64,000 nucleotides of DNA from Cyanobium sp. Aljojuca 7A6 (lineage in GTDB: Bacteria; Cyanobacteriota; Cyanobacteriia; PCC-6307; Cyanobiaceae), in NCBI RefSeq assembly GCF_024346455.1, contig NZ_JAGQCY010000004.1:1-64000 (forward strand). The letters are read 5' to 3'. How positions within the stretch are numbered: position 1 is the stretch's first letter; each line of letters begins with the position of its first letter. Below, piece by piece: positions 23,630 through 38,843 of the stretch. The notes below the pieces were generated by a model that was given only the letters and a program-made list of their open reading frames with translations, did no database searches and had not been told where the DNA came from. Both the position numbers and the translations under genes were made by a program.

Positions 23630-24682
23630 TCAGCGGTTGGCACCCGTCACCCTGAGGCTCGTGCCGGGAGGCTCGCCGAAGAGGGCGCGGTAGTCGCGGG
23701 CGAAATGGCCCGCGTTCAGGAATCCCCAGCGGGCGGCCAGTTCAGCGACCCGCTCCGTCTCCGGATCGGCGCTCAGCAGGGCCTGCCGCACCCCGTGCAG
23801 GCGACGGATCTTGAGGTAGGCCATCGGGCCCATGCCCAGGTGTTCCTGGAATCCCTGCAGCAGGCTGCGCCGACCGGCCGCGACCTGGCGGCACAGCCCA
23901 TCGAGGCTGATCGGCTCGTGGGGATGCTCCGCCATCCAGGCCTGGGCGGCCTTCACCAGCTCAATCCGAGCCGGCGGCCGGGCCAGCCGCGCGCCGTGGC
24001 CGGTGCGGTGCACCAGGGCCTCCACCAGCAGGGGCACCAGGTCCCCTCCCAGCTGCCGGCGGATCGCCGGATCCTCCATCAGGGCTGGAGACCGCTCGGC
24101 CAGGCGGAAGATCCGGCGCAGGCAGGCCTTCACCGTTTCGAAGCGCCGCGGATCGATCGCCTGCCAGTTGACACCCTCCAGCGGCTCCTCCAGGCCCGGT
24201 CCGCCCAGCTCGCGGGCCCACTGCAGGAACCTCTCCCGATCCAGGCTCAGCAACGCCAGGCTGCAGCGTTCGGGGGTGGTGAGGTGGATCTCGCCGCCGG
24301 CGGCCAGGCCGAAGAACGCCGTGACCGGCAGCTCCAAGCCGTGGGAGCGCATCACGGGCTGGCCGGGGTTCTCCTCCAGGTCAAGGGCGATCAGCTGGCG
24401 GCCTGTGGGTTTGGGCCCACCCCCGTGGAGGGGCCGATCGAAACGCAGCCGCATGACCTGGAGCGCACCGAGGTCGAGGGCCAGCAGCTCGCTGCCCAGG
24501 CGGCCGCCGGCCAGCTGGGTGAGTTGCACCGGCAGCAGGGGGCTCAGCACCCCTTCCAGGCGCGCGACGTCGTGGATGGGGCGGCACGGGGAAGAAGCGG
24601 ATCCGCACTTTTTGAGTGTTCGGATCGTTCCACTCAGTGCATCCTTTAGGGGCGTGTCCCCCGAAGGCGTGGCGTCCGTCAC
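23630..24682 (-). CDS. AraC-family transcriptional regulator
   Basis: The C-terminal ~100 residues hold two helix-turn-helix motifs: ISLDGLCRQVAAGRRSLLQG followed by FQEHLGMGPMAYLKIRRLHG and then ELAARWGFLNAGHFARDYRA with LFGEPPG. The N-terminal half would sense a ligand. GTG at 24682 is taken as the start, but it is not certain; the first 40 residues are weakly family-like. It is divergent from sulfatase 1 with 64 bases between starts, so it is the natural regulator of the sulfatase genes. The short gap contains imperfect GGGGCGTGTCCCC-type symmetry near 24650. Confidence 0.82.
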   Translation of the reverse strand: MTDATPSGDTPLKDALSGTIRTLKKCGSASSPCRPIHDVARLEGVLSPLLPVQLTQLAGGRLGSELLALDLGALQVMRLRFDRPLHGGGPKPTGRQLIALDLEENPGQPVMRSHGLELPVTAFFGLAAGGEIHLTTPERCSLALLSLDRERFLQWARELGGPGLEEPLEGVNWQAIDPRRFETVKACLRRIFRLAERSPALMEDPAIRRQLGGDLVPLLVEALVHRTGHGARLARPPARIELVKAAQAWMAEHPHEPISLDGLCRQVAAGRRSLLQGFQEHLGMGPMAYLKIRRLHGVRQALLSADPETERVAELAARWGFLNAGHFARDYRALFGEPPGTSLRVTGANR

Positions 24683-24746
24683 GTGACAACGGGGGACCTG
24701 ATCCCTCTTCCTACCCCACTTCCTCACCCGCCGGGTGTTCCCCGCC

Positions 24747-26255
24747 ATGCCAAACGGCCAGCCCAACATCCTCATCCTCTGGGGCGACGACATCGGCCAG
24801 AGCAACCTCAGCTGCTACAGCGACGGCCTGATGGGGTACCAGACCCCCAACATCGATCGCGTCGCCAAGGAGGGCGGGCGCTTCATCCACTATTACGCCG
24901 AGCAGAGCTGCACCGCCGGGCGGGCCGCCTTCATCTCCGGCCAGAGCGTGTTCCGCACCGGCCTGAGCAAGGTGGGGCTGCCGGGTGCCGAGCTGGGCTA
25001 CCGCGCCGAGGATCCCACCATCGCCGAGCTGCTCCAGCCGCTGGGCTACCGCACCGGCCAGTTCGGCAAGAACCATTTCGGCGACCGCGACGAGCATCTG
25101 CCGACGATGCACGGTTTTGATGAGTTCTTCGGCAACCTCTACCACCTCAACGCCGAGGAGGAGCCGGAGCTTCGGGATTATCCCAAGGCGGATGATCCGG
25201 AGTTCCCCAACTTCCGCAAGCGCTTCGCCCCCCGCGGCGTGCTGCACTGCTGGGCCAACGGCGACGGCACCCAGCGGATCGAGAACACGGGCCCGCTCAC
25301 CAAGAAGCGGATGGAAACCGCCGACGACGAATTCATCGTCGAGGCCAAACGCTTCATCCGCGATGCCGTGGCCTCGGGCGAGCCCTTCTTCGTGTGGTTC
25401 AACACCACCCACATGCACTTCCGCACCCATGCGCGGCCCCAGGATGTGGGCCAGTCGGGCCGTTGGCAGTCGGAATACCACGACGTGATGATCTATCACG
25501 ACAACTGCATCGGCCAGATGCTGGATCTGGTGGATGAGCTGGGCATCGCCGATGACACGATCGTGATGTACAGCACCGACAACGGCCCCCACATGAACAG
25601 CTGGCCCGATGCCGGCATGACCCCCTTCCGCAACGAGAAGAACTCCAACTGGGAGGGGGCCTACCGGGTGCCCGCCCTGGTGCGTTGGCCCGGCAAGATC
25701 GCGCCCGGCACCCTGTTCACCGACATCGTCAGCCACCTCGACTGGCTGCCCACGCTGCTGGCCGCCGCCGGCGAACCCGAGATCAAGCAGAAGCTCCTCG
25801 ACGGCCATCAGGTGGGAAGCAAGACCTTCCACATCCACCTCGATGGCTACAACATGCTCGACTACTGGACGGGCAAGGCCGACAAGAGCCCGCGGGTGGA
25901 GTTCTTCTACTTCTCCGACGACGGCGATCTCACCGGCCTGCGCTACGACAACTGGAAGTTCGTGTTCATGGAGCAGCGCGCCACCGGCACGCTGATGGTG
26001 TGGGCCGAGCCCTTCACCGAGCTGCGGGTGCCGAAGATCTTCAACCTGCTCACCGATCCCTACGAGCGGGCCGACATCACCTCCAACACCTACTGGGACT
26101 GGATGCTCGACCACGCCTTCATGCTGGTCCCGGCCCAGTCCTTCGTGGCCGACTTCCTGGCGTCGTTCAAGGCGTATCCACCCCGCCAGAAGGCCGCCAG
26201 CTTCACCGTCGGCGATGTGCTCGAGAAGATGATCTCCGCCGGAGGTGCGAGCTGA
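24747..26255 (+). CDS. Type I sulfatase (arylsulfatase-like), copy 1
   Basis: Alkaline-phosphatase-superfamily sulfatase. The formylglycine motif is SCTAGRAAFISG (Cys55), metal ligands are seen in ILWGDDIGQS (Asp14-Asp15) and MYSTDNGPHMNSW, and the substrate pocket has FGKNHFGDRDEHLPTMHGFD. No signal peptide: the protein starts directly with the core strand QPNILILWGDD, so it should act in the cytoplasm. It would hydrolyse a sulfate ester once Cys55 is converted by an FGE, for which a gene exists at 30148. GC-rich like the host. ATG at 24747 is used; a GTG twelve bases upstream is also possible. Followed by a strong hairpin. Confidence 0.9.
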   Translation: MPNGQPNILILWGDDIGQSNLSCYSDGLMGYQTPNIDRVAKEGGRFIHYYAEQSCTAGRAAFISGQSVFRTGLSKVGLPGAELGYRAEDPTIAELLQPLGYRTGQFGKNHFGDRDEHLPTMHGFDEFFGNLYHLNAEEEPELRDYPKADDPEFPNFRKRFAPRGVLHCWANGDGTQRIENTGPLTKKRMETADDEFIVEAKRFIRDAVASGEPFFVWFNTTHMHFRTHARPQDVGQSGRWQSEYHDVMIYHDNCIGQMLDLVDELGIADDTIVMYSTDNGPHMNSWPDAGMTPFRNEKNSNWEGAYRVPALVRWPGKIAPGTLFTDIVSHLDWLPTLLAAAGEPEIKQKLLDGHQVGSKTFHIHLDGYNMLDYWTGKADKSPRVEFFYFSDDGDLTGLRYDNWKFVFMEQRATGTLMVWAEPFTELRVPKIFNLLTDPYERADITSNTYWDWMLDHAFMLVPAQSFVADFLASFKAYPPRQKAASFTVGDVLEKMISAGGAS

Positions 26256-26344: not shown

Positions 26345-27811
26345 ATGAGTCAAACGAGCAAGCCCAACATCCTGATCATCTGGGGTGACGATGTCGGCAT
26401 GTGGAACATCAGCGCCTACCACCGCGGCATGATGGGTGGCAGCACGCCGAACATCGACCGCATCGGCAAGGAAGGCCTGATCTTCATGGATCACTACGGC
26501 GAGGCCTCCTGCACGGCGGGACGCGCGGCCTTCATCACGGGGCAGTATCCGATCCGGGTGGGTCTGGCCACCGTCGGCCTGCCTGGTGCGGAACAAGGCC
26601 TGAACAAGGCTGATCCAACGCTGGCCAGCCTGCTCAAGCCGCTTGGATACGCCACGGGGCAGTTTGGCAAGAATCATCTGGGCGATCGCGATGAGCACCT
26701 GCCCACCGCCCACGGCTTCGATGAGTTCTTCGGCATCCTGTATCACCTCAATGCCGGGGAATACACGGAGCAGTACGACTTTCCGAAAGCCCCCGAAGTC
26801 GCCAAGCAGTTCGAGCAGCGCGGCGTCATTCACTCCTGGGCAAATCCGGATGGATCGCAGAAGATCGAAGACAAAGGCCCGTTTGGTCGGGAGCGACAAC
26901 GCACGCTGGATGCTGAAATTCTCGTCGAATCCAAGCGCTTCATCAACGACGCGGTCGAGGCAGACACACCGTTCTTCGTCTGGCACAACACCACGCGGAT
27001 GCACTACCGCACCAACTTGTCGCCCAAGTACGAAGGCAAGAGTGGCTATGGCCTCTATGCCGACGGCATGATGGAACTCGACGACACAGTCGGCGAACTC
27101 CTTCAGCAGCTCGACGACCTGGGCGTCGCGGACAACACGATCGTGATGTTCTCCACCGACAACGGTCCAGCCATGAACAGTTGGCCCGATGGCGGCAACA
27201 CCCCGTTCGGCGGTGAGAAAGGTGTCGGTGGCAAGGAAGGTGGCTTCCGCGTGCCGATGCTCGTGAAGTGGCCCGGCACGATCCCCGCGGGCCAGACGAC
27301 CGGTGAGTTCATGACCATGCAGGACTGGATTCCCACCCTCATGGCCGCTGTCGGCGAGCCGAACGTGAAGGAGAAACTCCTCACCCGTTACCAGGCCGGC
27401 GACCAGACCTACGCCCACATCCACCTGGACGGGTACGACCAGACCGAGCTCATCACCGGCAAGGGCAAGTCCAAGCGCAAGGAGTTCTACTACTTCACAG
27501 AAACCAAGCTCCACGGCATCCGCTACGGCGACTGGAAGTTCCTGTTCGTCAAGCAAGACAAATGGTTCAACGGCGTCCAGCAGAACATGCTGACGCCGCT
27601 GGTCACCAACCTGAAGCTTGATCCGTTCGAGCGCATGCACGAGGCACGCGGGTTCGACGAATGGCAGGAGAACCACGCCTGGACTTATGCGCCCGCCTTC
27701 GCTCAGGTTGGCGTGCTGATGCAGTCGCTCAAGGACTATCCACCGCGCATGGCGAGCCTCGACTTCGACATCGACGAAGCCATGAAGTCACTCACGCCCA
27801 AAGGGGATTGA
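26345..27811 (+). CDS. Type I sulfatase (arylsulfatase-like), copy 2
   Basis: Paralogue of the preceding gene with the same layout: NILIIWGDDVGMW metal site, formylglycine motif ASCTAGRAAFITG (Cys56), FGKNHLGDRDEHLPTAHGFD and FSTDNGPAMNSWPDGGNTPF. It also lacks a signal peptide. The start ATG at 26345 is preceded by GAAGGGG. Base composition is lower in GC and codon choice is more mixed than in copy 1, so it is not a recent tandem copy but probably arrived separately. It would need formylglycine activation as well. Confidence 0.9.
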   Translation: MSQTSKPNILIIWGDDVGMWNISAYHRGMMGGSTPNIDRIGKEGLIFMDHYGEASCTAGRAAFITGQYPIRVGLATVGLPGAEQGLNKADPTLASLLKPLGYATGQFGKNHLGDRDEHLPTAHGFDEFFGILYHLNAGEYTEQYDFPKAPEVAKQFEQRGVIHSWANPDGSQKIEDKGPFGRERQRTLDAEILVESKRFINDAVEADTPFFVWHNTTRMHYRTNLSPKYEGKSGYGLYADGMMELDDTVGELLQQLDDLGVADNTIVMFSTDNGPAMNSWPDGGNTPFGGEKGVGGKEGGFRVPMLVKWPGTIPAGQTTGEFMTMQDWIPTLMAAVGEPNVKEKLLTRYQAGDQTYAHIHLDGYDQTELITGKGKSKRKEFYYFTETKLHGIRYGDWKFLFVKQDKWFNGVQQNMLTPLVTNLKLDPFERMHEARGFDEWQENHAWTYAPAFAQVGVLMQSLKDYPPRMASLDFDIDEAMKSLTPKGD

Positions 27812-27889: not shown

Positions 27890-29869
27890 ATGGAAAGAAT
27901 GAAACCAGGCCTCCCGGATGCAGACATCAAGGTGACGCTGGAAACCTACATCCGCGCAGAAACTGATCGGCAGTTCGGCGAGATCGTAAAAATGGCGGGG
28001 GGTATCAATCGCTTCTACCACTTCCGCAGCCCCACACCGCTCGACAAGCAAAACGTCGTGCGGATGAACCGCGACACCCTTTACTCCATGGGCGTTGTCG
28101 ATGCATCCAAGGGCGCTACGATCACCGTCCCGCAACTGCCAAAAGATCGTTATGCTTCGGTGTATCTTGTGGACAACGACCACTACTGTCCAGCGGTGAT
28201 CTACACATCCGGCACACACGAATTGCCGAAGGACACAAAATACCTGGCCCTCGGAATCCGCATCCAGGTATTCAATCCGAAGGACTCGGGCGAAATTGCC
28301 CTGGTCAACCAGTTGCAGGATCAGTTCGTCATTAAGGCCAACAGCGTCGATCCACTGCCTGATTTCAAGTGGAACCCTGAGTCGCTCAAGACCTTGACGG
28401 TGAAATACGAAGAGGAATTCAAGACATTCACGAAGTACCCCTCCGACTGGCAGGGGCCGCGCGGCAAGGTCAACGAGCAAACCCGTCACCTGGCGGCGGC
28501 AGGCGCTTGGGGCCTCTTTCCTGAATGGGATGCCACCTACCTGAACTACAGCGGGGGCCATGATCCAAAGGTTGGCCAAAAGGCCACCTATCAGGTGCCT
28601 GAAAACAAGGCTTTCTGGTCCATCACCATCTATGGCAACGACGGCTTCATGAAGAGCGAGAACTGCATCGTCAATTCCTCGAATGTGAAGCTGAATGCCG
28701 ACGGCACGTTCACCGTCTATTTCGGATCGCAGGAACTTTGTGGCGACGTTCCGAACCGGCTGGATATGACCGAGGGTTGGAATTTCCTGATGCGGGTCTA
28801 CCGGCCCGGCGAGTCGGTGCTGGACGGCAGCTACAAACTGCCCAATGCCGAGCCCATCGGAAGTGGGGGCGACAAACCCCTTCAGTTCGCTTCACCGGCG
28901 GACTTTGGAGTTACCGATTACGCTTACAAAGTCTCGGAGACCGATTTTAATATCAAGCGGAGCCTTGCCAAGGCCGGTATCAACCAGTGGGCCTATCAGA
29001 ACGATGTCAGCAACGTCAAGACACAGCAAGTCATTCGGGAGAATCAGGATGTCATTTATTCCAGCGCCGTCGTCGATGTTCGGGACGGTGCAACTCTCTC
29101 CATACCGGTAAGCAAAACCTATCACATCATCGAGGTCATCGATCAGCAGAACTACATTGTCGATGTCGTCTATCCCGGCAAGAGCCTCACGATTACGCCC
29201 GACAGCCTGACGTACGGCAACTACGTCTACCTCAACATGCGGATCCGAGGACTTCCAGATTCTGAAGGTGGAATCGAAGCCACGCGTAAACTTCAGCGGA
29301 TGGCAACCATTGAGGCAAAGTCAGCCGTGGCTTATACGACTCCCGACATCGTGATCGATCAGACCATAATGGAGGCGATCCGGATGGCGCTGATCAAGGA
29401 CGTTCAGGCGGGCAAACTACCCGACACCAGTAGATCGATAGGTGGACCGTATCAGACTGACCTGCAGGCCCATCTCTATGCCACCGCCTACGGATGGGGA
29501 GGCCTCTCTGTCGAACATGCAGCGTACGTTCCGATCACGAACTGCACGGAGATCAGGGAAGGCAAGGCGTTGCCATCAAGCATCACCTTCATGCCTCCCG
29601 AAATCGATTATGGCCGAGGTGGTTTCTGGTCGATCACCACCTACAACAGTGAAGGTTGGCTGGCCATGGACAAAGCCGCCATTTCGAATTCTGAGGCAAC
29701 TCCTAACCCAGATGGAGCTTATACGATTCGATTCAATTCTCCGGGATTGCCGAACAACGTCGAAACACCTTCGCCATTCACTGCGTTGCTTCGCGTCTAT
29801 GTTCCCAAGTCGAAGGAGAGCGCCATGCAATATCTGAAGAATGAGAGCAAGAACTTGGTTATCAAATAG
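27890..29869 (+). CDS. Tandem double DUF1254/DUF1214 protein
   Basis: Two repeats of the same layout. The first half has a DUF1254 part (VVRMNRDTLYSMGVVDASKG) followed by DUF1214 (AFWSITIYGNDGFM); the second half has IRENQDVIYSSAVVDVRDGA and GGFWSITTYNSEGWLAMDKA. Function of these families is unknown; members are often in the periplasm, but no signal peptide is seen here. AAGGAG lies 9 bases before the ATG. The gene is 78 bases after sulfatase 2 and shares its lower GC, so the two probably came together and form one unit. Confidence 0.8.
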   Translation: MERMKPGLPDADIKVTLETYIRAETDRQFGEIVKMAGGINRFYHFRSPTPLDKQNVVRMNRDTLYSMGVVDASKGATITVPQLPKDRYASVYLVDNDHYCPAVIYTSGTHELPKDTKYLALGIRIQVFNPKDSGEIALVNQLQDQFVIKANSVDPLPDFKWNPESLKTLTVKYEEEFKTFTKYPSDWQGPRGKVNEQTRHLAAAGAWGLFPEWDATYLNYSGGHDPKVGQKATYQVPENKAFWSITIYGNDGFMKSENCIVNSSNVKLNADGTFTVYFGSQELCGDVPNRLDMTEGWNFLMRVYRPGESVLDGSYKLPNAEPIGSGGDKPLQFASPADFGVTDYAYKVSETDFNIKRSLAKAGINQWAYQNDVSNVKTQQVIRENQDVIYSSAVVDVRDGATLSIPVSKTYHIIEVIDQQNYIVDVVYPGKSLTITPDSLTYGNYVYLNMRIRGLPDSEGGIEATRKLQRMATIEAKSAVAYTTPDIVIDQTIMEAIRMALIKDVQAGKLPDTSRSIGGPYQTDLQAHLYATAYGWGGLSVEHAAYVPITNCTEIREGKALPSSITFMPPEIDYGRGGFWSITTYNSEGWLAMDKAAISNSEATPNPDGAYTIRFNSPGLPNNVETPSPFTALLRVYVPKSKESAMQYLKNESKNLVIK

Positions 29870-30057
29870 TGATGCTCTCACGAATGGTTGGGTTTTCAGC
29901 GGGTCCGACGCGCTCAAACGTACGTTCTGGATGGAAGCCACCATCTGCCCTGACATGTTGCTGTTTCGAGAGCCGGCGAGGAGGCGGGATCATGTTGATC
30001 CAGACCCCATCCTGTCGACTGGTAACGATTCATAGTCGGAGCCTAAATATACTTGCG

Positions 30058-30082
30058 TCGAAATGATAAAGTCTCATTTCGA
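30058..30082 (+). other. 9-bp inverted repeat before the FGE gene
   Basis: TCGAAATGA and TCATTTCGA are exact complements separated by 7 bases. It sits in the 278-base gap 29870-30147, where I see no gene. No T-run follows, so it may be a weak terminator of the DUF1254/1214 gene or an operator for the FGE gene. Confidence 0.4.
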
Positions 30083-30147
30083 GGTCAAAGACTCAAGCGG
30101 GATCGCCCGATGATGTTGTTTTTGATGTTGGGGCCAGAATCCATGGC

Positions 30148-31119
30148 ATGCCCCCTTCTATGTACGGGTCACCAGCTATGAGGGCCGCCTTGAAGTATGG
30201 CGCCTCCCGTGAGCATGGCCGCCCCCCGGCGCGGGACATGGTGTGGATCCCTGGAGGCACTTTTCTGATGGGCTCCAACCTCCACTACCCGGAGGAGGCG
30301 CCCGCCCACACGGTGAGCGTGGACGGCTTCTGGATGGATCGCTACCTGGTCACCAATGCCCAGTTCCGCAAATTCGTGAAGGCCACCGGCCACGTCACCC
30401 TGGCGGAGCAGCCCGCTGATCCGGCCCAGTATCCCGACGCACTGACGGAGTTGCTGGTGCCGTCCTCGATCGTGTTCGTGCCACCGCCCGGACCGATCTC
30501 CAAGGGCGATCCCTACCGCTGGTGGCAGTACATCGCCGGCGCCAACTGGCGGCATCCCGAAGGGCCGGGCAGCTCCATCAAGCAGCGCGACCACCATCCC
30601 GTGGTGCATGTGGCCCATGCCGATGCTGCAGCCTATGCCGCCTGGAGCGGCAAACAGCTGCCCGGCGAAGCGGAATGGGAGCGGGCCGCCTGGGGTGGCA
30701 GTGAAGGGGCTGAGTTCGCCTGGGGGGAGGAACTGCACCCAGGCGGGCGCCCGGTGGCCAACACCTTCCAGGGAGATTTTCCCCACCACAACAGCCTGCT
30801 GGATGGCTATGCGGGCACCTCGCCGGTGGGTGTCTTCCCGGCGAACGACTATGGCTTGTTTGACACCATTGGCAATGTGTGGGAGTGGACCGACAGCTGG
30901 TACGCCAGCCATGCCAGCAACGCCGGATCAACGGACGCCCGTGCAGCCAGCATCGATCCCACCAGCCAGCACGGAGCGATGCCGCGCAAGGTGGTGAAGG
31001 GCGGCTCCTATCTCTGTGCCCCCAGCTACTGCCGCCGCTACAGGCCAGCGGCACGCATGGCCCAGGGAATCGACACCTCCACCAGCCACATGGGCTTTCG
31101 CTGCATCGTGCGTCTCTGA
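30148..31119 (+). CDS. Formylglycine-generating enzyme (sulfatase-activating)
   Basis: FGE/SUMF1-type protein that oxidises the Cys of a CxAGR (or CxPSR) motif to formylglycine using copper and oxygen. The N-terminal family start VWIPGGTFLMGSNLHYPEE, the middle GKQLPGEAEWERAAWGG and WEWTDSWY, and the active site GGSYLCAPSYCRRYRPAAR with Cys290 and Cys295 are all present. The start might be any of the Met at 30148, 30178 or close by; the core begins at Met31. It lies downstream of two sulfatases carrying its target motif, so it is very likely their activator. A partial second copy follows at 33014. Confidence 0.9.
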   Translation: MPPSMYGSPAMRAALKYGASREHGRPPARDMVWIPGGTFLMGSNLHYPEEAPAHTVSVDGFWMDRYLVTNAQFRKFVKATGHVTLAEQPADPAQYPDALTELLVPSSIVFVPPPGPISKGDPYRWWQYIAGANWRHPEGPGSSIKQRDHHPVVHVAHADAAAYAAWSGKQLPGEAEWERAAWGGSEGAEFAWGEELHPGGRPVANTFQGDFPHHNSLLDGYAGTSPVGVFPANDYGLFDTIGNVWEWTDSWYASHASNAGSTDARAASIDPTSQHGAMPRKVVKGGSYLCAPSYCRRYRPAARMAQGIDTSTSHMGFRCIVRL

Positions 31120-31141
31120 AGCCGTGATTCCTTCCGATGGC

Positions 31142-31762
31142 ATGGTGATCCAGAAGCTGCCCCATCCCCCGGCTGCTGACCCCACGGCGCCCCGTGCCCA
31201 GAGGAGCCGGATCGCTGGGGCCTTCGTCGGCATGGCCGCCGCCTATGCGATCACCCGCCAGCTGCCCTTTCTGCCGGCCACGCTGCTGAGTTCCCTGGTC
31301 CTGGCCGCCATCTCCACGTTCATCGGCAGGGTCCACTCCCCGCTGCGGTGGTGGGCCCTGCTCGGCACCGCCTGCGGCTCGGTGCTGGGCAGTGCTGTGG
31401 TGCTGGCGGCGAAACTTCAGCAGAGCGAACCGCAGTCAGATCTCTCCAGCAGGGCCGTACTGCTCGGTTGTCTCGCCCTTGCCGGTTGCATCGCCGGGCA
31501 CAACCTCAGCCGCGATGCCGTTGGTGATTCCGCCCGCCACCCCAGGGACCTGCTGCGTTCGGCCAGTGCACTCACCACCGGCATCTTCGCGGTGCTGGTC
31601 ACCTTCAGCTTTCTGCATTCCGGACTGGATACGGCGCGCACCTTCTCCAGTCGGCTCAGCACCTCCCTGACCATCCTGGTGGCGACGCTCTCCGTACCTG
31701 GATGGCTGACCCATCTGCTGACCCGCTCCAAATCTCAAGCCGTTTCCTCCCCCCGACCCTGA
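31142..31762 (+). CDS. Multipass membrane protein, unknown function
   Basis: 206 residues with about five hydrophobic segments (IAGAFVGMAAAYAITRQLPF; SLVLAAISTFIG; LLGTACGSVLGSAVVLAA; LLGCLALAGCIAG; TTGIFAVLVTFSFLHSG). ATG at 31142 or GTG at 31124 can start it. It stands between the FGE gene and the first BASS gene with 4-base spacing to the latter. No equivalent exists in the second copy of the module. I do not recognise a family. Confidence 0.6.
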   Translation: MVIQKLPHPPAADPTAPRAQRSRIAGAFVGMAAAYAITRQLPFLPATLLSSLVLAAISTFIGRVHSPLRWWALLGTACGSVLGSAVVLAAKLQQSEPQSDLSSRAVLLGCLALAGCIAGHNLSRDAVGDSARHPRDLLRSASALTTGIFAVLVTFSFLHSGLDTARTFSSRLSTSLTILVATLSVPGWLTHLLTRSKSQAVSSPRP

Positions 31763-31766
31763 CGCC

Positions 31767-32645
31767 ATGGCCCAGGCAACCCTGCTGCTCGTCAGCCTCA
31801 CCCTGTTCACGATCATGTTCGGCCTGGGTGTTGGCCTGAAGGGAGAGGCCATCCTCCAGCTGCGCCGCAGGCCTGCCCTGGTGATCCGGCTGCTGATCGG
31901 CTCCTGTGTGCTGGTCCCGCTGGTGGCCCTTGTGCTCATGAAGCTGACTCCGGACCTGGCCCTCTCCAGGTCCGCCCGTTTCGGCATAGCCCTGATGGCC
32001 ATCTCACCGAGTGCTCCCCTCACCCTGCGCAAGGCCGGCAAAAAGGGGGGCGACCGCGAGCTGGCGGCGGTGCTTCAGGCCTGCGCGGCGGTGGCCGCGA
32101 TCGTTTCGATCCCCCTGATCGCGGATCTGTTCCGCTCCTCCTTCGGGATTTCAGGGTGGGACATCGGCCCGAAGGAGGTGGCCCTGCAGGTGGGCCAGGT
32201 CCAGGTGCTGCCGCTACTGGCGGGCCTGGGGCTCAGGCGTTGGCGGCCGCTCTGGGCGAATCGGCTGTCGGGTCCGCTCGAGACGCTGGGGAATGGCCTG
32301 CTACTGGTGCTGATCGTGCTGGTGCTGGTCAAGTCGCTGCCGCTGCTGCTGCCCTTTGCGGCCGCCAACGTGGTGGCCCTGGGTTTCATGGCTGTGATGG
32401 TGCTGGCGGCCCTGGCCATCGGCTATGGGATCGCTGGCCCTGACCACCGGGAGCGCACCACGCTCGCCCTCGTCACCTCGATGCGCAACCCAGGGCTGGC
32501 CCTGCTGTTCGCCACGACCTACGGCGCCGGCTTCCCTGGCCTGAAACTCGCCGTTCTCGCCTACTTGCTGATCACTGTGTTGCTGTCGACTCCCTTCCTG
32601 CGCTGGCAGCGCCAGAAGCAGCAGGTGCCCTTCGTGACCCCTTAG
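31767..32645 (+). CDS. BASS-family (bile acid:sodium symporter-like) transporter, copy 1
   Basis: Nine or so helices; the pattern FTIMFGLGVGLKGEAILQL at the start, SPSAPLTLRKAGKKGGD after helix 3, and TSMRNPGLALLFATTYGAGF near the end fit the BASS/SBF group, which carries organic anions with sodium. Cyanobacterial relatives include transporters for bicarbonate-unrelated acids and for sulfonated or carboxylated compounds. It follows FGE, so an organic sulfate or its desulfated product could be carried; this is inference only. Confidence 0.75.
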   Translation: MAQATLLLVSLTLFTIMFGLGVGLKGEAILQLRRRPALVIRLLIGSCVLVPLVALVLMKLTPDLALSRSARFGIALMAISPSAPLTLRKAGKKGGDRELAAVLQACAAVAAIVSIPLIADLFRSSFGISGWDIGPKEVALQVGQVQVLPLLAGLGLRRWRPLWANRLSGPLETLGNGLLLVLIVLVLVKSLPLLLPFAAANVVALGFMAVMVLAALAIGYGIAGPDHRERTTLALVTSMRNPGLALLFATTYGAGFPGLKLAVLAYLLITVLLSTPFLRWQRQKQQVPFVTP

Positions 32646-32978
32646 ATGCCCTGGCTCGAATCCCCCGAGGCCCTGCTCCAGGGGCTTGCCGGTGTCGTTC
32701 GCTTCACCCTGGAATTTTTTTCAGTGCTCTGTGTGGCGGCGGGGGTGATCACCACCCTTCGACTGGCCTTGCCGTTCCTGCCTGTCCTGGGCCATCGCGG
32801 CCGACGTCCCCCCAGCACGATCCGGATCAACTTCGGCAGCTGGCTGTCGATGGCACTGGAATTCCAGCTTGGGGCCGACATCGTGGCCACCACCGCGGCT
32901 CCCTCGGAGAGCAACCTGATCCAACTGGCGGCGGAACGGCGGCTGGAGCAGGATCGTCCTCTGAGTCCGAAACCCTGA
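32646..32978 (+). CDS. DUF1622 membrane protein, shortened copy
   Basis: The start directly follows the BASS stop. The family core is seen in FGSWLSMALEFQLGADIVAT. In the complete paralogue at 33380 the next part is NLIQLGVIAVIRTFLNIFLG, the second helix; here the sequence departs after NLIQL into charged residues (AAERRLEQD) and stops. So the copy has lost its C-terminal helix and may be non-functional. DUF1622 proteins are small two-to-three-helix membrane proteins of unknown role. Confidence 0.65.
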   Translation: MPWLESPEALLQGLAGVVRFTLEFFSVLCVAAGVITTLRLALPFLPVLGHRGRRPPSTIRINFGSWLSMALEFQLGADIVATTAAPSESNLIQLAAERRLEQDRPLSPKP

Positions 32979-33013
32979 ACAGCCCCTTGCTTTCGGCACC
33001 GATCGGCACCTCC

Positions 33014-33376
33014 ATGAACCTCACCAACGAACTGGCCAAGGAGCGCAACAGGGCGGCCGCCGAGCACACCTCGCCGGTGGGAACCTACCCGCCGAACGGG
33101 TATGGACTGCGCGACATGATCGGCAACGTCTGGGAATGGACCGACGACTGGTACGTCACCCATGCCAGCGGCATCGACAACCCCGGTGGTTGTTGCCGGG
33201 AAGCCAGCATCGATCCCACCTCCAAGCACGGCAGCCTGCCCCGCAAGGTGGTCAAAGGCGGTTCGTTTCCCTGCGCTCCGAGCTACTGCCGCCGCTACCG
33301 GCCCGCCGCGCGCCTGGCCCAGGGGATCGACACCTCCACCTGTCACATGGGCTTTCGTTGCCTGGTGAGGAGCTGA
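33014..33376 (+). CDS. Chimera: DUF202 N-terminus fused to FGE catalytic end
   Basis: The first 17 residues (MNLTNELAKERNRAAAE) match the start of the DUF202 protein at 33814 (NNELAKERNRAAAERT). They then pass in frame into the last third of a formylglycine-generating enzyme: PPNGYGLRDMIGNVWEWTDD and GGSFPCAPSYCRRYRPAARL with both active-site Cys (87 and 92). The first two thirds of FGE are missing, so the fold is incomplete, and activity is doubtful. The fusion marks the junction of a segmental duplication. Could be called a pseudogene, but the frame is open, GC-normal and tightly packed. Confidence 0.75.
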   Translation: MNLTNELAKERNRAAAEHTSPVGTYPPNGYGLRDMIGNVWEWTDDWYVTHASGIDNPGGCCREASIDPTSKHGSLPRKVVKGGSFPCAPSYCRRYRPAARLAQGIDTSTCHMGFRCLVRS

Positions 33377-33379
33377 ACC

Positions 33380-33814
33380 ATGCCAGACATCCCGCTGCTG
33401 GAGTGGCTCGATCGGTTCGCCTTTGGCCTGCGTGTCGTGCTGGAGGCCGTGTCGCTGGTGTGCGTGGCCCTGGGCTTCGCCGCCACGCTGCGCCTGAGCC
33501 TTCGTCAGACCCTGCGCCAGTCGCTGCTCCATGGCCACGGTCGCCAATCCCAGGGGCGGCGGTTCAACAGCCTCCGCCTCACCTTCGGCAGCTGGCTGTC
33601 GATGGCGCTGGAGTTTCAGCTGGCCGCCGATATCGTGGCCACCACCACCGCACCCTCGAATCAGAACCTGATTCAGCTGGGGGTCATCGCTGTGATTCGA
33701 ACCTTCCTCAACATCTTCCTGGGCCGGGAAGTGGAACTGGAGCTGAAGTTTGAGGAAACCCAGAACCAGCAGAGCCAGCCGACTTCTCCCACCGACACCA
33801 CCGCTTCTTTCTGA
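33380..33814 (+). CDS. DUF1622 membrane protein, complete copy
   Basis: 144 residues with three hydrophobic helices: VVLEAVSLVCVALGFAATLR, SWLSMALEFQLAADIVATTT and LIQLGVIAVIRTFLNIFLGR, then a Glu/Gln-rich cytoplasmic tail. Starts 3 bases after the chimeric gene and overlaps the following DUF202 gene (TGATG). Function unknown. Confidence 0.75.
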   Translation: MPDIPLLEWLDRFAFGLRVVLEAVSLVCVALGFAATLRLSLRQTLRQSLLHGHGRQSQGRRFNSLRLTFGSWLSMALEFQLAADIVATTTAPSNQNLIQLGVIAVIRTFLNIFLGREVELELKFEETQNQQSQPTSPTDTTASF

Positions 33815-34200
33815 TGGCGAATCTCAACAACGAACTGGCCAAGGAGCGCAACCGGGCGGCGGCCGAGCGCACCATGATGGCCTGGATCCGCACCTGCCTG
33901 TCGCTGATCAGTTTCGGCTTCGGACTCGACAAGATCATCGGTGCCATCAACAGCAGCCGCTTCGATCGCAGTGCCCATGCCGGCCTGAGTGTGCGGCTGA
34001 TCTCCATGGGGTTTGTTCTGGTCGGGATTTTGGCGATGGCGGCGGCGACCCGTCAGCACCTGCGCACGCTCAAGCTGATCCGGCGCGACGACTTTCTTTA
34101 CGCTGATCAGCGCTCGATTTCCATCTTCACGGCTGTTGCCCTCACTGTCATCGGCATCTTTGCCTTCGTGCTGCTGATCATGGGTTCCCCTTTCACCTGA
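33814..34200 (+). CDS. DUF202 (YidH-like) membrane protein
   Basis: DUF202 signature NNELAKERNRAAAERTMMAW with three helices (IRTCLSLISFGFG; LISMGFVLVGILAMAAAT; FTAVALTVIGIFAFVLLI), 128 residues. The family is widespread and of unknown role. It is translationally coupled to DUF1622 upstream and followed 5 bases later by BASS copy 2, so the three form one unit. Confidence 0.8.
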   Translation: MANLNNELAKERNRAAAERTMMAWIRTCLSLISFGFGLDKIIGAINSSRFDRSAHAGLSVRLISMGFVLVGILAMAAATRQHLRTLKLIRRDDFLYADQRSISIFTAVALTVIGIFAFVLLIMGSPFT

Positions 34201-34205
34201 CTGCC

Positions 34206-35090
34206 ATGCCCCAAGCCGCCGCCTTTCTGGTCACCGCCACCATCGTCACGCTGATGTTCAGCCTCGGCCTGGGGCTGAAGCAGTACCCGTTCCGGCTGCT
34301 CAAGGATCGCCCCGCCTTTCTCTGGCGCGTGCTGCTCGGCACCTGCCTGCTGGTGCCCCTGGCTGGGCTGGTGCTGGTGCTGCTGCCCCTGCACGGCCTG
34401 CTGAGCCGGCCCGCCTGGGTGGCCATGGGCCTGATGCTGGCGTGTCCCAGCGCCCCTTTGATCCTGTTCCGGGTGCGCAGCAGTGGCGGCACGGCCGAGC
34501 TTGCGGCGCGGCTGCAGATCGCCGCGGCGCTGCTGGCCATCGTCACGATTCCGCTGCTGGAGATCGTGTTCCGAACCGGCGCCGGCCTGCGCGGCTGGGA
34601 GATGGTGGATTGGGGAATCACCCCTGCCCAGGTGGCGGGCCAGGTGCTGAAGGTGCAGGTGCTGCCGGTGATCGCCGGTGTGCTGCTGGGGCAATGGCAG
34701 CCGCAGCTGGCCCAGCGCTGCAGCCAGGCCCTCGGCAAGCTGGCCACCTTGATGCTGCTGCTGATGATGGTGGCGCTGGTGCTGCTCAGCGGCAAGCTTC
34801 TGCTGCCCTTCCTGCAGCAGAACCTGGTGGCCCTGGCCGGTATGGCCCTCCTCTGCGTGCTCAGCCTGGCGATCGGCTACGGCCTCGCAGGGGCGGACCC
34901 ATTGGAGCGCCGCACCGTGGCCCTGGTGACGGGCATGCGCAACACGGGCCTGGCGGCCCAGCTGGCTCTCACCTACGGCAAGGCGCTGCCCGGTCTGGTT
35001 CCCGGCATCCTGTCCTACGTGCTGATCACGGTGATCGTCACCACCCTGTTCCTGAAATGGCAGCAGCGGGAACTGGCGCCCACCGGCTGA
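34206..35090 (+). CDS. BASS-family transporter, copy 2
   Basis: Paralogue of 31767-32645, with the same marks: VTLMFSLGLGLKQYPFRLLK, CPSAPLILFRVRSSGGTAEL and TGMRNTGLAAQLALTYGKAL. Overall about 294 residues and nine helices. The two copies differ over most of their length, so the duplication is not recent. Its stop abuts the stop of the MscS-type gene on the other strand (no spacing). Confidence 0.75.
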   Translation: MPQAAAFLVTATIVTLMFSLGLGLKQYPFRLLKDRPAFLWRVLLGTCLLVPLAGLVLVLLPLHGLLSRPAWVAMGLMLACPSAPLILFRVRSSGGTAELAARLQIAAALLAIVTIPLLEIVFRTGAGLRGWEMVDWGITPAQVAGQVLKVQVLPVIAGVLLGQWQPQLAQRCSQALGKLATLMLLLMMVALVLLSGKLLLPFLQQNLVALAGMALLCVLSLAIGYGLAGADPLERRTVALVTGMRNTGLAAQLALTYGKALPGLVPGILSYVLITVIVTTLFLKWQQRELAPTG

Positions 35091-36755
35091 TCAGCCGTTT
35101 GGCTCGACGGTCTTGGGCACCGTGCTGCGGTTGCCGTTGCGGATGGCGTGGTAGCCCGGCGAGAGGATCTCCACATCGGCGGCGGCGAACTGATCCTGGA
35201 GCGCTGCCAGCACCTCTGAGAGGGTCTGGCGGTAGGTGTCCGGATGGCGCACGAAGGCGTTGAGTTCGTAGCTGATGTGGAAGTCGTTGAGGGAGGTCTG
35301 GAGCACGAACGGCGCCACCTCGTCGGTGATGCCCTCCACGCTCTGGGCGGCCGCCAGCATCAGCGTGTGCACCCGGCGCCAGGGCACGTCGTAGCCGATG
35401 GTGATGGTGGTGGCGATCGCCACGGGCTGCTGGATCTCGCGCCGCGAGAAGCTGTAGTTCACCACCGAGGCGCCGATCACACTGGCGTTGGGAATGCTCA
35501 CCAGTTCGTTGCGGGGCGTCTGCAGGCGCGTCACCAGCAGGGCCCGGTCCTGCACCACCCCCACCACCCCGTTGACCTCCACCCGGTCGCCTTCGCGGAA
35601 GGCCCGGGTGTAGATGAGCATCAGGCCGCTGATGATGTTGGTGGTGACGGCACTGGAGCCGATGGCCGCCAGAGCGCCGAGGAACAGGCCGGCGCCCTGG
35701 AACACCTTGCTGCCGGAGCCGGGGATGTAGGGAAAGGCCGCCGCCAGCCCGAACAGACTGAACAGAATCGTCACCAGCCGGGAGGTGGGCAGGGCCCATT
35801 CCTGGTAGAAGCCTGGGAGGCGGATTCGCCCGTGGTGGATGGCCCTGAACCAGGCCTGGCTGGCCCGGATCACGAGCACCGTGATCACCAGAACCACCAC
35901 CATCGAGGCCAGGTTCGGAATCGCCTGCACCCCCGAGCGCAGGACACCCAGCAGCGTGGTTCTGATCTGTCCCCGTAACCCTTCGGCGATGCCTGCGGTG
36001 GGAGGAAAGAATCCCAGCAACAGGGGAATCAACAGGTAGCTGACCACCAGCACCAGCGTCCAGTGCACCACTTGGCGCAGCCATTGCATCAGCTGGCGCA
36101 CCTGATCCGCCTCGACGAACCCGGCCACGCCCAGGCGGCCCAGCCCCTGCATCACGAAGTGGGGGCGCTCGGCGAAATGGCGCCGAAGCCGCCGGTTGAG
36201 CCATCCCTGCAGCCGCAGCCAGAGGATGTAGACCGCCAGAACAAGCGCCGCCAGCGCCGTCCCCTTCAGCCAGGCGCTGGGGGTATGGGTACCCCGGTAG
36301 GTGCTGATCGCCCGCCGCAAGTCGTCCCGGTAGCGGAGCGCCAGCTGCTGCCGGCTCAGACCGAAGCAGGCACCGGCGGGATCGTCCACGCCCAACTCAG
36401 GCGTGAAGCGGCCATCGCTTTTCAGGATCCCGACCAGGGAGAAGGGTGGCTGCTCCTGCACCACGATCTGGTCCGGTTCGAAGCTGCGGTCCTCGGCCAG
36501 TTGCCGCAGGCGGAGGTTGCTGCGACGCACGTAGTCGTCGATTTTCTGGGCGCCGGGAGCACGGCGGATCTCCAGATCGCGGCGGCCATCAAGGCCGATG
36601 AAGCTGGGCGTGGGCGCACAGCCTGCCATGGCCTCCGCCATGGCCCAGGTGGGCCTGGGTGGCAGGCTCAGCCCAAGGCCGAACACCAGCACCAGCAGGG
36701 TGGCCAGCGCGCCGAGGCGCCACCGCGTGCGATTCCCACTGTGTCGCTCGACCAC
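35091..36755 (-). CDS. MscS-family mechanosensitive channel with long N-terminus
   Basis: A signal peptide-like start (LGALATLLVLVFGLGLSLPP), a periplasmic region of ~120 residues, then helices and an MscS core: FQGAGLFLGALAAIGSSAVT (pore helix), FREGDRVEVNGVVGVVQDRA (beta domain) and a C-terminal alpha-beta part. Channels of this type open on membrane tension in hypo-osmotic shock; the long versions may be regulated by other ligands. It converges on BASS copy 2 without a gap. Confidence 0.82.
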   Translation of the reverse strand: MVERHSGNRTRWRLGALATLLVLVFGLGLSLPPRPTWAMAEAMAGCAPTPSFIGLDGRRDLEIRRAPGAQKIDDYVRRSNLRLRQLAEDRSFEPDQIVVQEQPPFSLVGILKSDGRFTPELGVDDPAGACFGLSRQQLALRYRDDLRRAISTYRGTHTPSAWLKGTALAALVLAVYILWLRLQGWLNRRLRRHFAERPHFVMQGLGRLGVAGFVEADQVRQLMQWLRQVVHWTLVLVVSYLLIPLLLGFFPPTAGIAEGLRGQIRTTLLGVLRSGVQAIPNLASMVVVLVITVLVIRASQAWFRAIHHGRIRLPGFYQEWALPTSRLVTILFSLFGLAAAFPYIPGSGSKVFQGAGLFLGALAAIGSSAVTTNIISGLMLIYTRAFREGDRVEVNGVVGVVQDRALLVTRLQTPRNELVSIPNASVIGASVVNYSFSRREIQQPVAIATTITIGYDVPWRRVHTLMLAAAQSVEGITDEVAPFVLQTSLNDFHISYELNAFVRHPDTYRQTLSEVLAALQDQFAAADVEILSPGYHAIRNGNRSTVPKTVEPNG

Positions 36756-36863: not shown

Positions 36864-38843
36864 ATGCTCCGTTCTCCCCTGCTGCCCCTGTTGCTGCTGC
36901 TCGCGGTGCTGGTGCAGGCCCAGTTGCGGCCGCTCCAGCCCGGCGCTGGGGATCCGCTGCGGCTGCTCGACGGTGGGGATGGCCCCCAGCTGGCGATCCT
37001 GACGGGACAGCTCTTGAGCGATCCGGTGGCCAGCGCGGCTTCCGAGGCTGCCCCCGCCGGCCAGGCCGGCCCCTGCCGGGTACTCCTGCAGACGGCTGGA
37101 GGCCGCAGCGAGCTGAGCTTCGGCACCTGTCCGGCGTTGCGCGAAGGCTGGGACGTGCGGGTGAGCGGACAGCTGCGGCGCCCCCGGCCGGCCCCCCATC
37201 CGCTGCTGGCCGGCCCGGCCGAGCGCCTGGCCCGCCACGGCAGCTGGACCCGCCTGACGGTGGAGCGGCTGGAGGTGCTGCGCCGGCCCGCCACCCCGAT
37301 TGCCGACCTGCGCCGCAGCATCGCCGCCCGTTTTGTGGCCGCGGCGGGCCCGGAGCGGGGCGGCCTGCTGGCGGCCCTGGTGCTGGGCAGTGCCGTGGTG
37401 CCCCTGCCGGCGGAGCTGCGCGCCGACTTCCGTGTCGCCGGCCTCTCCCATGCCCTGGCGGCCTCTGGATTCCATCTCAGCGTCCTGCTGGGGGCGGTGC
37501 TGGCCTTGGGCCGGGGCCTCGGCCGCTCGGCGCGGCTGGCCCTGGGCGGTGGTGCCATGGCGCTGTTTCTGCTGCTGGCCGGAGCCCAGCCCTCGGTGGT
37601 GCGGGCGGTGCTGATGGGGGCCATTGCCCTGGTGCTGCTTGAGAGCGGCCGGCGGGGGCGCCCCCTGGGGATCCTTGGCCTGAGCCTGGCGGGCATGTTG
37701 CTGCTGCGGCCGGCCTGGCTCCACGACGTCGGCTTCCAACTCAGCGCCGCCGCCACCGCCGGCCTGGTGCTGACGGCCAGGCCCCTGGAACAGGCCCTGG
37801 CCCAGCGGCTGCCTGGCGCGGGCTGGCTGGCGCCCGCCCTGGCGGTGCCGCTGGCGGCCAGTCTCTGGACCCTGCCGCTGCAACTGCTCCACTTCGGCGT
37901 CGTGCCCCTCTACGCCGTGCCGGCCAACCTGTTGGCGGCCCCCCTGCTGACGCCACTCACCCTCGGGGCGATGGCCCTGGCGCTGGTGGCCGTGCTGGTG
38001 CCGCCCCTGCTGGCGCCGCTGCTGGTGCCCCTCGGCTGGCTGGCCGCCTTGCTGCTCCAGCTCGCCCACGTCGTCGCCGGCCTTCCCCTGGCCCAGTGGC
38101 AGAGCGGCCGGCCCCTGCCCCTGCTGGTGCTGCTGTTCACGCTGGCGTTGCTGGGCCTGGTGCTGCCGGGCCTGGGCCGGCGCCGGCGACTGCTGGCGGC
38201 AGGCCTGGGCCTCGGGGTGCTGGTGCTGCACCTGGTGCTGCTGGGTGGCGACCAGCTGCTGCTGGTGCACCAGGGGGAGGGTGGTCCCGGCCGCGATCTG
38301 TTACTGGCCCGCCACCGCGGCCGCGCCGCCCTGGTCAGCACCCGCGCCGATGGTTTCAGTTGCCGCCAGGCCGGCCAGCTGGCCCAGGGTCTGGGGGTGG
38401 CCCGCTTCGATTGGGCCCTGTTGCTCGATCCGGTGGCGGGCGCCGATCCGGCCTGCTGGAGCCGCCAGGCTGCTCGAGTGGTGGCCTACGGCGATGGCGC
38501 GGTCCCCCTGGCGGCAGGGCAGCGGTTGGCGAGCCGGGGGCTGGCGGTGCAGGCCCTGGCCATGGACAGCCACGCCCTGCGGCTGCAGCTGGGCCACCAG
38601 CGCTGGCTGCTGCTGCCCGATCGACAGTCGCTGGCCAGCTGGCGATCGGGCCAACCGGCCAACGCCTCAGGGTCGGCGGCGGAGTCCGTGTGGCTGGGGT
38701 TCCGCCCCCGGCCCTCCGACCATCGCGTCCTGTTGGCCCACGGGCCGCGGCAGGTGTGGCTCAGTGGACCGGGCCCAGGAGGGTCTCCCTTGCCGCCCGG
38801 TTGGCGGGCCAGTGGGGCGAGCGGGGCGCTGGCCGCTCCGTAA
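36864..38843 (+). CDS. comEC: ComEC/Rec2-type DNA uptake channel
   Basis: An N-terminal OB-like part (RVLLQTAGGRSELSFGTCPA), then the competence domain with GLSHALAASGFHLSVLLGAV and GAQPSVVRAVLMGAIALVLL and many helices, then a C-terminal beta-lactamase-like part. ComEC moves single-stranded DNA through the inner membrane in natural transformation. In the C-terminal part the HxHxDH metal site of nuclease-type ComEC is not seen (STRADGFSCRQAGQLAQ is at that place). The very GC-rich gene ends 23 bases before tRNA-Ser. Pilin and ComEC in one window support natural competence, but other com genes are not here. Confidence 0.88.
   Translation: MLRSPLLPLLLLLAVLVQAQLRPLQPGAGDPLRLLDGGDGPQLAILTGQLLSDPVASAASEAAPAGQAGPCRVLLQTAGGRSELSFGTCPALREGWDVRVSGQLRRPRPAPHPLLAGPAERLARHGSWTRLTVERLEVLRRPATPIADLRRSIAARFVAAAGPERGGLLAALVLGSAVVPLPAELRADFRVAGLSHALAASGFHLSVLLGAVLALGRGLGRSARLALGGGAMALFLLLAGAQPSVVRAVLMGAIALVLLESGRRGRPLGILGLSLAGMLLLRPAWLHDVGFQLSAAATAGLVLTARPLEQALAQRLPGAGWLAPALAVPLAASLWTLPLQLLHFGVVPLYAVPANLLAAPLLTPLTLGAMALALVAVLVPPLLAPLLVPLGWLAALLLQLAHVVAGLPLAQWQSGRPLPLLVLLFTLALLGLVLPGLGRRRRLLAAGLGLGVLVLHLVLLGGDQLLLVHQGEGGPGRDLLLARHRGRAALVSTRADGFSCRQAGQLAQGLGVARFDWALLLDPVAGADPACWSRQAARVVAYGDGAVPLAAGQRLASRGLAVQALAMDSHALRLQLGHQRWLLLPDRQSLASWRSGQPANASGSAAESVWLGFRPRPSDHRVLLAHGPRQVWLSGPGPGGSPLPPGWRASGASGALAAP

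Follow-up and report, generated by a model that had tools for sequence, protein, structure and literature searches.

The window, a stretch of 64,000 nucleotides taken from contig NZ_JAGQCY010000004.1 (positions 1 to 64,000, forward strand) of Cyanobium sp. Aljojuca 7A6 (assembly GCF_024346455.1), contains an open reading frame (ORF) of 120 codons at positions 33014-33376 in which the start of a DUF202 gene runs in frame into the end of an FGE gene. This fusion ORF begins with ATG and stands in a series of genes that are all read from the plus strand: sulfatase 1 (24735-26255), sulfatase 2 (26345-27811), a 659-residue protein in which Pfam finds two DUF1254/DUF1214 units (27890-29869), the only complete FGE of the locus, FGEa (30148-31119; PF03781, 269.6 bits), a 206-residue protein X (31142-31762), the SBF-family transporter SBFa (31767-32645; PF01758), DUF1622a (32646-32978; PF07784), the fusion, DUF1622b (33380-33814; PF07784), a complete DUF202b (33814-34200; PF02656) and SBFb (34206-35090; PF01758), followed 3′ by a convergent gene for an MscS-type channel. 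Both sulfatases match PF00884 and have the motif CTAGR, and the suffixes a and b refer to two operon types, A and B, described below. ORF analysis, translation and Pfam matches bear out the gene order, the coordinates and the in-frame 120-residue ORF given in an earlier sequence-only reading of this DNA. The 'membrane protein' of that reading is X, which is indeed hydrophobic-looking and has only sub-threshold Pfam matches, and its 'BASS' genes are matched in Pfam as SBF.

The fusion ORF is made of 16 DUF202 codons (33014-33061), which alignment with type A DUF202a genes identifies by the type A form MNLTNEL, followed in frame by the 3′-terminal 104 codons of an FGE gene. Residues 17-120 match the FGE C terminus (SUMF1/FGE, PF03781; 91.4 bits against a cut-off of 23.3) over profile positions 154-254 of 255, which falls short of the whole single catalytic domain. 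Cys87 and Cys92 (33272-33274 and 33287-33289) correspond in alignment to the two active-site cysteines of solved FGEs, which include 1Y1E, 2Q17 and 6S07, and the FGE remnant (33071-33376), assigned to type B by identity and by its position in a tree, also retains a Cys-Cys loop. The earlier description of a DUF202 start joined to an FGE end with both catalytic cysteines therefore stands. The likeness to DUF202 is limited to residues 1-16, which were recognized as the beginning of a DUF202 protein by comparison with relatives' genes; the ORF has no match to PF02656 at E values up to 1. FGE has been described as having a copper cofactor and two active-site cysteines (PMC4505483). Unlike FGE, the fusion is missing the N-terminal two thirds of the protein, and it has Pro in place of Leu before the first cysteine.

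Related loci were taken from a contig search that kept 79 loci of 106 relatives, which were mapped with the window's proteins (loci are numbered L, genomes G). Two operon types were found. Type B, represented by L004-L012, L028 and others, has the order sulfatase 1, FGEb, DUF1622b, DUF202b, SBFb. Type A, represented by L022, L031, L034, L036, L042 and their relatives, has the order FGEa, X, SBFa, DUF1622a, DUF202a, with the exceptions that X was not detected as such in L022 and that DUF1622a is lost in L034 and L042; downstream of DUF202a, L034, L036 and L042 carry a SulP sulfate permease gene, which is broken in L042. The window contains parts of both. X is a marker of type A, SBFa is 93% identical to its counterparts in L034, L036 and L042, sulfatase 2 is 95% identical to those of L034, L042 and L043, and DUF1622a is 54 nt (18 codons) shorter than in L036, L022 and L031. 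On the type B side, DUF202b and SBFb are 99% and 96% identical to those of L004, and the FGEb remnant is 93% identical to the corresponding stretch of L004 FGEb. The window's two FGE parts are 74% identical to each other. In a tree of C-terminal FGE sequences, which has few columns and leaves 27 of 60 inner branches open, the fusion part is placed with L004 (97/98), and FGEa joins L022, L034, L036 and L042 (100/87). The longest repeated DNA families between the two units (D2, D7 and D8) are 79-81% identical, and the two DUF202 starts share 91% identity over 55 nt (D11). The units of the window are diverged operons, each nearer to other picocyanobacterial operons than to its neighbour.

The arrangement of the two types can be followed along the locus. 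Ten type B loci (L004-L012 and L028) are collinear with the window, apart from local gaps, as far as the 3′ end of sulfatase 1, and collinearity resumes at 33062; the genes in between are carried by type A loci. Sulfatase 1 is common to both types. At 24600-24749, upstream of and into the start of this gene, five of seven type B loci match the window at 92-96% identity (L004, 80%; L028, 85%), and the three type A loci that reach there at 36-43%. Farther along the gene, the nearest locus is mostly L034, L042 or L043: at 26100-26249, identity to the window is 89-91% for L042, L034, L043 and L022 (80% for L036) and 73-77% for six type B loci (87% for L028). GC content is 0.53-0.64 over 25-30 kb compared with 0.70-0.73 over 22-25 kb. 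This pattern shows a type B backbone with a type A tract of ∼8 kb (∼25.0-33.06 kb) inside it. The right end of the tract falls in a 9-bp microhomology at 33062-33070, where the window reads GAGCACACC. The form GAGCGCACC is present at the junction site in every type A DUF202a gene (five) and every FGE gene of a type B-like locus (13) that was examined. When L036 DUF202a is compared with L004 FGEb, the match at the junction is exactly 9 bp long, and the fusion is in frame because these 9 bp encode Glu-Arg-Thr ('ERT') in both genes.

The fate of FGEb differs with the presence of type A genes. In a sample of 42 genomes of the genus, 15 have a close SBFb (at least 81% identity), and X was counted as close at 77% identity or more. 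All 12 genomes with a close SBFb and no X match have an FGEb that covers the 301-residue query from residue 7 or earlier to its end, with no stop and with the CAPSYC motif present. In contrast, FGEb is broken or absent in all three genomes that have both a close X and a close SBFb, namely the window genome, G003 and G009 (Fisher p-value of 0.0022 for FGEb loss versus X, in genomes that are related). G003 retains an in-frame stub of 80 residues that has lost both catalytic cysteines, and in G009 SBFb and a DUF202 tail are the sole type B remains. Because all three breaks differ, they look independent. A further case lies outside the Fisher count: in L042 the A unit is adjoined directly by a B-like unit through a different junction, at which SulP runs in frame into the B-like FGE (L042 12100-13000) and is followed by a frameshift and stops, one of them at the codon of the second catalytic cysteine. 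More distant relatives of X (47-60%) occur in 17 other genomes of the genus, none of which has a close SBFb.

We consider it likely that the fusion ORF is a recombination scar, that is, gene debris, by whichever route it arose. A type A sulfatase-maturation tract would have been joined into a type B locus, with its left end anchored in the common sulfatase gene, where recombination could be homologous, and its right end closed at the 9-bp match of DUF202a and FGEb. Some 200 N-terminal codons of FGEb would thereby have been lost, and the FGEb tail would have been left in frame after 16 codons of DUF202a. In homology-facilitated illegitimate recombination (HFIR), one end of the incoming DNA is homologous and the other is joined at a very short match. 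Both ends of the tract fit such an event, and a single step of this kind during DNA uptake would be the likeliest route, one to which, taken alone, we give slightly better than even chances. RecA-dependent HFIR, with 3- to 10-bp segments integrated and short stretches of microhomology, is described in PMC6382021, which cites de Vries and Wackernagel (2002). The tract resembles these cases in having one end in the common sulfatase 1 and the other at a 9-bp sequence present in relatives of both parents, and differs from them in that the event is deduced from a natural genome and not from a transformation experiment. A ComEC homologue is encoded near the tract (36864-38843) and a DprA homologue is also present; because both families also match E. 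coli among the controls, DNA uptake is something we can only infer. The main text of a paper on cyanobacterial competence (PMC7690421) does not mention Cyanobium.

The state of the FGEb remnant is compatible with relaxed constraint. In an alignment of 78 FGE rows (76 loci, FGEa and L003; L029, L051 and L069 were left out because no single match was long enough), the fusion has the substitution L86P immediately ahead of the first catalytic cysteine, at a position that is Leu in all 78 sequences. When changes were assigned by eye by comparison with L004 and six outgroups, the window branch received seven nonsynonymous and ∼5 synonymous changes, and the L004 branch no more than one nonsynonymous change. 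With a Ks of ∼0.1 between the fusion and its nearest relative, the junction would be young, yet formally the ORF is still a gene because it is open. An AlphaFold2 model of the fragment has a mean predicted local distance difference test score (pLDDT) of 38 and a predicted template modelling score (pTM) of 0.21; the full-length L004 FGE, run as a control likewise with 30 rows, reaches a mean of 59 and a pTM of 0.66 and is similarly poor in this part, with values below 50 over residues 217-294, which is most of the C-terminal part concerned.

Several observations weigh against this account. L036 DUF202a and L004 FGEb share five matches of at least 9 bp, so that a match of this length is not rare. 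The identity pattern of sulfatase 1 is mixed between 24749 and 26100, and the left crossover is thus not sharp and can be placed only roughly, at 24.75-25.2 kb, in the 5′ part of the gene. Other A loci have several genes and pieces that the tract lacks, which implies more than one event. As for the remnant, it retains the conserved residue at 33 of the 34 positions with a conservation of at least 95%, L86P being the sole exception, and the reading frame is still open. In addition, four of the seven nonsynonymous changes (T24, Y25, R33 and T69) are to residues found in other FGEs, and the ratio of 7 to ∼5 rejects neither neutrality (P of 0.14) nor an omega of 0.15 (P of 0.058).

A different route to the same scar is possible, though we think it unlikely: the A and B operons may first have stood intact in tandem, with a later deletion between the 9-bp repeats that took out the 5′ part of FGEb together with the remainder of DUF202a and any SulP gene. 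Deletion between short repeats would give an identical junction, and L042, in which a B-like unit comes immediately after the A unit, indicates that tandem forms occur. However, that B-like unit is of a different lineage (SBFb, 49%) and has a truncated FGE, none of the mapped loci has both units complete in tandem, and one-step import requires fewer events.

A second explanation is the new small protein with a thiol pair that the sequence-only reading offered; in our version of it, the protein might keep copper or thiol chemistry or aid FGEa. Consistent with this idea, the catalytic cysteines, the Cys-Cys loop and the open frame are all kept, and the loop is the very feature that FGEa has lost: its loop (∼30898-30942) is 14 residues shorter than in L034, L036 and L042 and is without the Cys-Cys pair, which is found in all 42 aligned FGEs of L004-L046 and in 16 of 34 more distant ones. 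On the other hand, about two thirds of a single-domain enzyme are gone, L86P lies beside the first catalytic cysteine, and the G003 stub is in frame yet has neither cysteine. Among solved FGE chains, the two that align best to FGEa also lack the Cys-Cys loop, from which it follows that FGEa needs no helper for want of that loop. Nor did the fusion reappear in relatives: a pattern search that allowed up to three mismatches, and that a fusion at another point would escape, did not find the window's junction in any of the 41 other genus genomes. We therefore regard a new small protein as very unlikely.

The junction pattern itself matched in six of the 42 genus genomes, including that of the window, where it hit twice, at the junction and in DUF202b; in the five other genomes the matching sequence (2-3 mismatches) continues as an ordinary DUF202 gene and not as FGE, and was discarded. 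L044-L046 were also rejected as relatives of the fusion, since residues 1-120 matched there because a DUF202 gene follows a complete FGE, in the reverse order. Titles and abstract openings of papers on FGE, the DUFs, the fusion and microhomology, from a collection outside whose coverage most subscription journals lie, do not describe the fusion, and DUF1622 was not found in the papers on DUF1622 or DUF202 among the matches listed.

The draft state of the genome (34 contigs) raises the question of an assembly artefact, which we judge highly improbable: the copies are too diverged to collapse, the junction rests on 9 bp only, and the type B sequence flanking both sides agrees with relatives. The segmental duplication claimed in the sequence-only reading, here a recent duplication with loss, is scarcely credible and was rejected on identity, gene order, tree and synteny, because, although the gene families are repeated in succession and the DUF202 starts are nearly alike, the other repeats are more diverged, the order of the genes is unlike and the two units are closest to different sets of genomes. 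Of the 'accident of duplication' proposed there, the accident is thus well supported and the duplication gives way to the joining of two diverged operons.

CTAGR is the kind of sulfatase motif that FGE modifies. FGEa is under purifying selection (omega of 0.13-0.15 against four relatives), and it is plausible that FGEa is the working enzyme for the window's sulfatases. If FGEa does the work of the enzyme, the FGEb tail would be free to decay, and most likely the fusion does nothing as an enzyme. Among nine type B loci examined, eight have an FGEb whose end lies 3 nt upstream of the DUF1622b ATG (GTG in L028), and the fusion keeps this spacing; translation of the fusion may therefore keep the downstream genes expressed, and the ORF, if active at all, probably just carries ribosomes to DUF1622b. 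In a scan of 29800-35200 the only promoter-like sites were two on the minus strand, and terminator-like sites were absent, against an expectation of 3.0 from shuffled sequence; this is weakly consistent with a single transcript. A more general rule can be imagined, in which picocyanobacteria with a second sulfatase-maturation unit repeatedly have the older FGE cut to short in-frame stubs (120 residues in the window, 80 in G003) that are kept open by translational coupling to the DUF1622, DUF202 and SBF membrane genes or by regulating them, but we find it quite unlikely.

Chimeric ORFs and pseudogenes arise at recombination junctions. The fusion is like such junction pseudogenes in that it joins the start of one gene in frame to the end of a second, coexists with a complete paralogue and has parallel losses in relatives; unlike them, it is still open and young. 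We conclude that it is a real, well-explained scar and a new example of a known phenomenon. As a well-resolved case, it suggests how foreign DNA may integrate through a long match at one end and a very short one at the other, and how a chimeric ORF resembling a new gene can arise by accident. The loss of FGEb alongside a second unit provides a small natural test of redundancy, and the locus warns that small Pfam-positive ORFs with catalytic residues may be debris.

Other features of these loci were noted. The gene for the 659-residue DUF1254/DUF1214 protein is one ORF in the window and two ORFs in L034, L042 (stop) and L043 (stop and frame change), and may represent a second gene fusion in the type A tract. 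L034, L036 and L042 have, between FGEa and X, a gene for a 241-residue pentapeptide-repeat protein that the window lacks at the corresponding place (31119-31142). In L029 (6146-8330) the FGE gene is present as two pieces ∼1.2 kb apart, possibly split by an insertion. The window genome also has a third FGE-like gene (L120 1809-2672; G000 contig 29, ∼121.3 kb), which is ∼52% identical to FGEa and is followed by a distant sulfatase-like stretch.

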